NCBI GenBank assembly: GCA_902526645.1
Contig: CABZLS010000009.1
Span: forward strand, 1-55,789
Source of the DNA: an uncultured Pelagibacteraceae bacterium
GTDB taxonomy: Bacteria; Pseudomonadota; Alphaproteobacteria; Pelagibacterales; Pelagibacteraceae
DNA length: 55,789 nucleotides
Reading direction: 5' to 3'
Made by a program: the position numbers and the translations under genes. The notes under the pieces were generated by a model. It did not search any database. It was not told the origin of the DNA and saw nothing but the letters and a program-made list of their open reading frames with translations. Below, piece after piece: positions 1,504 through 2,040 of this stretch (position 1 is the stretch's first letter; every line of letters starts with the position of its first letter).

Positions 1504-1531
1504 CTTGAAAAAAATTAAATAGCTCCCATAT
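1504..1531 (+). promoter_or_regulatory. Sigma-32 (RpoH)-type heat-shock promoter for hsp20
   Basis: CTTGAAA at 1504-1510 is followed by 14 bases and then CCCATAT at 1525-1531. This closely matches the known RpoH consensus (CTTGAAA, 11-16 bases, CCCATnT). It lies just after the ptrB stop and points at hsp20. Transcription would start near 1538, leaving a leader of about 55 bases. Motif seen; sigma factor inferred. Confidence 0.78.
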
Positions 1532-1538
1532 AAATCTT

Positions 1539-1590
1539 GTTGGTCGCCTATCGGGGCTAACTCAAATAAACTTGCTTAACAAAGGAGGAT
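1539..1590 (+). promoter_or_regulatory. ROSE-like RNA thermometer in the hsp20 leader
   Basis: Two hairpins can be drawn. The first, 1539-1561, has a nine-pair stem (two G-U pairs) with one bulged G and loop UAUC. The second pairs CUUGCUU (1571-1577) with AAGGAG (1582-1587): C-G, U-A, U-G, bulged G1574, C-G, U-A, U-A, with loop AACA. It buries the Shine-Dalgarno sequence AAAGGAGG. The UUGCU with bulged G opposite the ribosome site is the hallmark of ROSE elements, which repress small heat-shock genes in alphaproteobacteria. Fold drawn by hand; thermometer function inferred. Confidence 0.65.
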
Positions 1591-1593
1591 ATA

Positions 1594-2040
1594 ATGACAA
1601 GTAAGGATTTATCTATATTCAACTCACTAAGACCTTTTTCAATTGGTTTTGACGATATGTTCGATCAGTTTGAAAATATGCTTGATAATGGTTCTTTGAC
1701 TATGCAGTCAAATTACCCGCCTTATAATATCAGAAAAACTGGTAAGGACAATTATGCTATAGAAGTTGCTTTGGCTGGTTTTAATAAAAAAGATGTTGAG
1801 GTAGAGTTTGAGGATAATTTATTAACAGTTAGAACTAAACAAGTTAATAAAACTGAAAATAATGATGCTAATGGAGAAATAATTCATAAAGGAATTTCTC
1901 AAAGACAATTTGCAAGATCATTTACTATTGCTGATGACGTGAAAGTTAACAATGCCGAGCTTAAAGATGGTCTTTTAACGATTTCTTGTGAAAGAATTAT
2001 TCCTGAGCATAAAAAGAAAAAAATTATTGAAATTAAATAA
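1594..2040 (+). CDS. hsp20: Small heat-shock protein, Hsp20/IbpA family
   Basis: ATP-independent holdase chaperone that binds unfolding proteins in the cytoplasm. At 148 residues it has the usual length. The alpha-crystallin domain spans about residues 45-135, with the strands LLTVRT and DGLLTISCE. The C-terminal tail ends in IIEIK, near the I-x-I motif used for oligomer contacts. The start is fixed by a very strong AAAGGAGG site nine bases upstream. A sigma-32-type promoter and a ROSE-like leader precede it, so heat control at both transcription and translation is likely. A 12-bp hairpin follows the stop codon. Also annotated ibpA in relatives. Confidence 0.93.
   Translation: MTSKDLSIFNSLRPFSIGFDDMFDQFENMLDNGSLTMQSNYPPYNIRKTGKDNYAIEVALAGFNKKDVEVEFEDNLLTVRTKQVNKTENNDANGEIIHKGISQRQFARSFTIADDVKVNNAELKDGLLTISCERIIPEHKKKKIIEIK

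Follow-up and report, generated by a model that had tools for sequence, protein, structure and literature searches.

A ROSE-like two-hairpin leader upstream of hsp20 in SAR11 bacteria and marine phages

Introduction

ROSE-type RNA thermometers lie in the 5' untranslated region (UTR) of small heat-shock genes, where a U(U/C)GCU strand pairs imperfectly with the Shine-Dalgarno (SD) sequence in the 3'-proximal hairpin and a bulged or mismatched G stands opposite the SD (Krajewski et al. 2013, PMC3669281). In Pseudomonas, a sigma-32 promoter, a ROSE leader and a 5'-terminal hairpin are found together; the first hairpin (hairpin I) does not melt, and the second (hairpin II) alone is still heat responsive (PMC3669281). 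Here, we describe a ROSE-like leader that precedes hsp20 in a stretch of 55,789 nucleotides (nt), called the window below, from an uncultured Pelagibacteraceae bacterium (GenBank assembly GCA_902526645.1, contig CABZLS010000009.1, positions 1 to 55,789 of the forward strand). An earlier reading of the bare letters, hereafter the original prediction, had placed a heat-shock promoter and a ROSE-like thermometer in front of this gene.

The window belongs to a SAR11 genome of 1.08 Mb. SAR11 are among the most numerous bacteria on Earth and have few regulators. Their genomes were previously searched for structured RNAs, and the element was not reported (PMC2704228). The original prediction knew of no described ROSE element in this clade; likewise, we found no earlier report of the element in SAR11 or in phages in the literature searched.

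Results

In the window, hsp20 (positions 1594 to 2040, plus strand, like all features below unless stated otherwise) is an open reading frame (ORF) for a small heat-shock protein of 148 amino acids (Pfam HSP20, 63.6 bits, E = 1.9e-17). When cut at the AUG, its leader folds into exactly two hairpins (-13.1 kcal/mol, z = -2.22, equalled by 5 of 200 shuffles). Hairpin I consists of nine pairs at positions 1539 to 1561, as originally proposed, with a bulged G1546 and a four-base loop (1549 to 1552). A short AT-rich linker leads to hairpin II (1571 to 1588), in which the anti-SD strand CUUGCUU (1571 to 1577) faces the SD sequence AAGGAGG (1582 to 1588) across a four-base loop; folded alone, it reaches -3.1 kcal/mol (z = -2.73, equalled by 3 of 200 shuffles). 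The bulged G opposite the SD in the original prediction needs rewording: G1574 is unpaired in the best fold and in homologues, but the best canonical fold sets it opposite G1585, which makes it a G.G mismatch instead of a pure bulge, the mismatch and bulge registers being close. An alternative register with a second AGGA in one SAR11 genus (genus 1) was ruled out by energy. The leader thus carries the structural hallmarks of the ROSE class: it occupies the 5' UTR before a small heat-shock gene whose start codon comes a few bases past the SD, its 3'-proximal hairpin pairs a U(U/C)GCU strand imperfectly with the SD, and a G (G1574) is bulged or mismatched opposite the SD. We consider that it is very likely a short two-hairpin ROSE-type translational control element whose SD would be hidden at ordinary sea temperature and opened by warming. 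Its structure is conserved and covaries; masking of the SD in vivo, its release by melting and the magnitude of the effect are inferred.

The strongest evidence for the element is comparative. Conservation was evaluated with an alignment of 92 distinct SAR11 leaders and with a covariance model, R1, trained on genus-1 leaders only, with no phage and no second genus in the training set. R1 matched strongly in all 47 sampled genus-1 genomes with hsp20, and in the 14 genus-1 genomes without an hsp20 match no R1 match was stronger than E = 0.12. The window genome holds one strong copy, no second one being found. In the alignment, CTTGCT is invariant in the 92 leaders while the neighboring spacer and loop vary. 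Hairpin I shows changes on both sides in six of its nine pairs, with 53 cells carrying such changes against 15 in shuffles, and the covariation score of the whole structure (0.207, versus 0.122 for shuffled alignments) was not reached by any of 500 shuffles.

Outside genus 1, R1 recovers the leaders of hsp20 from further SAR11 genera, at E = 1e-13 to 2e-6, and from a second family. Four further Pelagibacteraceae genera and the second family keep the layout with different sequences: in other genera and families the anti-SD strand can instead read TCGCT or CTCGC, and in an example from the second family, UAAUCGCUUAAGGAGGAUUA, the flanks of the SD helix pair differently. Over 142 genomes of the class, 5 of the 10 top R1 matches outside Pelagibacteraceae fall in loci that hold hsp20. 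Apart from the hsp20 leaders of the second family, weak R1 matches elsewhere in relatives (E = 0.01 to 1) were taken as chance. We also observed that R1 matches hsp20 leaders in other alphaproteobacterial families, in genomes without an RF00435 (ROSE) match over the cut-off. One Pelagibacter genome (G056) contains a divergent hsp20, 57% identical, with a ROSE-like leader of its own (R1 E = 4e-7), as well as a second hsp20-like match that is 31% identical; these extra copies were perhaps acquired.

We also aligned 65 bacterial and phage leaders across lineages. Changes on both sides affect 13 of the 15 pairs in this cross-lineage alignment, 4 of the 6 in hairpin II among them, and the covariation score is 0.597 against 0.189 for shuffled and at most 0.115 for slid versions. 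The original prediction had made its case depend on conservation and covariation in homologous leaders. Both are found, with the UUGCU/SD pairing retained in SAR11 genera, the second family and phages, and covariation in hairpin I within SAR11 and in both hairpins across lineages. The compensatory changes sought in the SD-pairing hairpin specifically are absent within genus 1 and appear only at this larger distance.

The unexpected part of the finding is the near-universal presence of the element before hsp20 in marine phages. We gathered viral hsp20 loci by searching viral contigs with the window protein. R1 matches 97 of 100 marine viral hsp20 loci with E values of no more than 0.05. Every one of these matches lies on the coding strand, and almost all of them sit immediately at the start codon. 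In seven of nine complete phage genomes, the hsp20 leader is the best R1 match. Among isolates, the two-hairpin leader precedes hsp20 in the pelagiphages Mosig, HTVC008M, HTVC103P and HTVC115P, in the methylophage Melnitz-3, and in the cyanophages P-SSM4, S-RSM4, Sf-CH1b and Syn33. A model-free test for the two-hairpin layout was positive in 102 of 151 distinct viral leaders, compared with 2 of 755 shuffled leaders and 1 of 211 other SD-ATG sites on the same contigs. Of 130 viral leaders, 47 have the T4-type late promoter TATAAATA (consensus from PMC3037559) no more than 30 nt upstream of hairpin I, against 0.7% of control windows; it mostly ends 3 to 4 nt before the hairpin. The heat promoter is thus often replaced in phages, with the RNA element kept. 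It is an evenly balanced proposition that marine pelagiphages, cyanophages and methylophages have, before their own hsp20, a functional ROSE element of the type shared with SAR11 and driven by a late promoter, and that RNA alone lets them adjust this chaperone to heat or unfolded protein.

These data bear on whether the leader regulates anything at all. A 5'-terminal hairpin can stabilize mRNA, as noted for Pseudomonas (PMC3669281), and the predicted SD occlusion is partial, so that hairpin I might merely protect the 5' end and the SD pairing be a by-product of an AT-rich leader. Such a passive leader would not account for an anti-SD strand that stays invariant next to a variable spacer and loop, for U/C alternatives that preserve the pair with G and flanking pairs that change jointly across lineages, or for a complete two-hairpin layout that almost never arises by chance in the model-free test. 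We regard this explanation as very improbable.

Upstream of the leader, the originally proposed promoter CTTGAAA-N14-CCCATAT is confirmed, with the -35 element at 1504 to 1510, a 14-nt spacer at 1511 to 1524 and the -10 element at 1525 to 1531. The exact pattern CTTGAA-N13-16-CCNATAT occurs once in the 1.08-Mb genome, at hsp20, and its reversed control not at all. All 92 distinct SAR11 leaders have TTGAA at the place of the -35 element; among the 59 with a clear -10 element, 56 have the 14-nt spacer and 50 have 7 nt between the -10 element and the first hairpin base. The genome encodes RpoH (359 bits, over the curated cut-off), so both features by which we assign a gene to the RpoH regulon, an RpoH-type promoter and an rpoH gene in the same genome, are present. 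From the conserved -35 element and this gene, we class the promoter as RpoH-type and predict that RpoH uses it. A relaxed promoter pattern was no commoner in the genome than its reversed control (11 versus 13 occurrences); therefore, only the exact pattern is informative, and a wider RpoH regulon could not be drawn. Transcription would start at about 1538 to 1540, on the first base of hairpin I or a neighboring one, and the lower conservation of the bases just 5' of the hairpin is consistent with such a start. The original prediction had found two stacked layers of heat control striking; this judgment does not stand, since Pseudomonas has the same arrangement of sigma-32 promoter, ROSE leader and 5'-end hairpin (PMC3669281).

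Several observations weigh against reading the leader as a ROSE thermometer. When the first codons are included, the minimum-energy fold shifts CUUGCUU from the SD to codons 2 to 4, a pairing absent from the original prediction. Nearest-neighbor folding leaves the SD unpaired with a probability of 0.36 at 5°C and of 0.42 at 45°C, which describes a leaky and almost temperature-flat element. Hairpin II is nearly invariant within genus 1 and hence shows no covariation there, and the cross-lineage alignment was fitted to the model, so that its counts lean towards structure. Finally, no Rfam ROSE family reached its cut-off in the window or in the 17 SAR11 leaders scanned. The thermal profiles did not discriminate, either for the window leader or for a Pseudomonas control leader, which also changed little with temperature; because nearest-neighbor energies omit non-canonical pairs and the control barely shifts, this test is weak either way. 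The near-invariance of hairpin II is, for its part, no evidence in either direction.

As for Rfam, the ROSE_3 model (RF02523) aligns end to end with positions 1538 to 1599 and places the unpaired G of both hairpins on its own unpaired positions, but the score of 19.4 bits (E = 0.13, in a permissive scan of the 501 nt from 1300 to 1800) is below the gathering cut-off of 43 bits. This ROSE family is the sole Rfam family match that overlies the element, still under its curated cut-off. The same local scan gave further weak matches, among them ZEB2_AS1_4, snoR20a and STnc150, which were dismissed as chance. None of 117 genomes searched in the order has a ROSE_3 match above the cut-off, and a methylophage leader, at 34.1 bits, also stays below it. 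RF00435, with a gathering cut-off of 45 bits, has no match in the window genome and exceeds its cut-off in none of 142 genomes of the class. A P. aeruginosa-type ibpA leader, scanned likewise with ROSE_3 as a positive control, scored 69.2 bits; therefore, the ROSE_3 model works, and SAR11 is simply distant from its seed. This control leader precedes an apparent host ibpA gene in an unverified record, OQ572409.1, named "Pseudomonas phage Y7", which we set aside as a phage example because it is a probable host contaminant.

The competing fold with the first codons directs attention to the coding sequence. Codons 2 to 4 (ACA AGU AAG) have the lowest synonymous entropy among 97 three-codon windows of hsp20, and the frozen stretch, ACAAGUAAGG (1597 to 1606, from the start of codons 2 to 5), is complementary to both 1571 to 1577 and 2048 to 2057. 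Lys4 is AAG in 95 of 96 genes, AAG making up 20% of the Lys codons elsewhere in hsp20, and the first codons of the neighboring permease show no comparable freeze. AAGUAAG can pair with CUUGCUU over its whole length, one of the pairs being G-U. Just past the stop codon, CTT[AG]CTTG is found in 87 of 88 distinct tails, versus 4 matches in 382 kb elsewhere. In the window, this conserved 3' tail, CCUUACUUGU (2048 to 2057), forms the lower 5' arm of a terminator-like hairpin, whose facing arm is much less conserved. The tail consensus, CCUURCUUG(U/C), is complementary to codons 2 to 5, and a codon-tail pairing of at least 9 nt is possible in 124 of 128 genes, against 2 of 128 control windows. In three genomes, codon 4 ends in A, and exactly these three have TC for CC in the tail. 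The tail and the ACAAGTAAG codons are both present in genus 1 and in a sister genus (g8), and both are missing from genera g5, g6 and g7 and from the divergent G056 copy. We also noted that the terminator-like hairpin (2049 to 2080) is strong, carries its U-run on the minus strand, and lies between hsp20 and a convergent ORF at 2081 to 2386.

This complementarity could make the Pelagibacter leader part of a larger switch, in which codons 2 to 5 would have two partners: bound to the anti-SD strand, they would expose the SD, and bound to the 3' tail, they would release the anti-SD strand to close the SD. The freeze of the three codons that complement CUUGCUU, the near-universal tail with pairing far above controls, the joint occurrence of ACAAGTAAG and tail, and the coincidence of codon-4 and tail variants in three genomes would all fit. 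However, the pattern represents one or two evolutionary origins only and includes no compensatory double change that restores a broken pair, and phage hsp20 genes have no such complementarity. The tail is also an arm of the terminator-like hairpin, which is expected to outcompete long-range pairing, and whole-mRNA folding mostly keeps it there. We therefore judge the switch unlikely: with few independent events and a tail that folds mostly in its own hairpin, we report the complementarity as an observation and accept no mechanism for it.

The design of hairpin II recurs in hairpin I: in SAR11, Pseudomonas and phages alike, a bulged G (G1546 in the window) is followed by C and stands opposite a G-rich arm. 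It is possible that this bulged G-C is a protein-binding motif, and the leader as a whole may be mainly a protein-binding one: Hsp20 would bind the two bulged-G hairpins and repress its own synthesis until unfolded proteins titrate it away, temperature acting indirectly. IbpA of E. coli, Cedecea and Vibrio binds its own 5' UTR and represses translation via Arg93, and self-repression of E. coli IbpA also needs Arg97 and Lys98 (PMC10474464). In the window protein, Arg104 and Arg108 align with Arg93 and Arg97, but Ser109 replaces Lys98. Arg93 is matched in seven of seven aligned marine phage proteins and is Gln in IbpB, although it may be common in bacterial small heat-shock proteins whatever the type of leader. 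Nearly all the SAR11 and marine phage leaders that we examined keep the bulged G and following C of hairpin I, more than a 5' cap needs, and the behavior of the Pseudomonas hairpins described in the Introduction, I not melting and II responding to heat alone, would suit a binding role for hairpin I. We entertain this explanation tentatively, as the less probable one; it is compatible with melting of hairpin II.

Discussion

Our analysis confirms the observation on which the original prediction was built and supports its ROSE-like reading. In the scheme that we favor, transcription from the RpoH-type promoter would begin at or beside the first base of hairpin I, a stable and covarying 5' cap that, by analogy with Pseudomonas, is not expected to melt. 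Hairpin II, in which CUUGCUU faces AAGGAGG with an unpaired G and wobble pairs, would mask the SD at ordinary sea temperature, and warming would open it, so that hsp20 mRNA would be translated mainly under heat or protein-folding stress. Marine phages would use the same element before hsp20, often with a late-type phage promoter in place of the heat promoter, and thus would keep the RNA layer alone.

A conserved thermometer before hsp20 would offer a direct handle on how SAR11 senses warming. In marine T4-like phages, a core gene may be under RNA control, and the occurrence of the element there suggests a simple test of why these phages carry the chaperone. If the phage elements do work, they would constitute the first ROSE family in phages and be among the most abundant RNA thermometers in the sea. 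The present Rfam ROSE models miss the whole group, a gap that the alignment from this analysis could repair.

Among phages, RNA-level heat control has been described for lambda cIII, SPbeta blyA and a Caudoviricetes sigma-70 gene (PMC11182007). That paper reports fourU-type elements before other genes, none of them called ROSE or placed before hsp20, and we found no report in the literature searched of an RNA thermometer before a phage hsp20. The hsp17 thermometer of the cyanobacterium Synechocystis (PMC4477652) also acts at the level of translation before a small heat-shock gene, but it consists of a single simple hairpin and lacks the ROSE layout. The cyanophage leaders do not resemble it and look proteobacterial in type.

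The original prediction likened the leader to the ROSE elements of rhizobia. The ROSE type is supported, but the nearest relative is a different one. The rhizobial (RF00435) and E. coli ibpA (RF01832) elements likewise precede a small heat-shock gene, and their 3'-proximal hairpin also has U(U/C)GCU opposite the SD; they differ in having three to four hairpins in a longer leader, and neither model reports the window. The short ROSE element of Pseudomonas ibpA (RF02523; PMC3669281) shares with the SAR11 leader two hairpins, a bulged G in hairpin I and an unpaired G in hairpin II, U(U/C)GCU facing the SD, a small heat-shock gene downstream, and a sigma-32-type promoter with an mRNA start near hairpin I (a predicted start in SAR11). 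The SAR11 leader differs in being AT-rich, in its low ROSE_3 score, and in a weaker hairpin II (at 37°C) that lacks a GC clamp on both ends. Because the cut-offs are not reached, it stands formally outside the Rfam ROSE families; by its layout, it is a low-scoring and very widespread new member of the short ROSE class rather than the founder of a new one.
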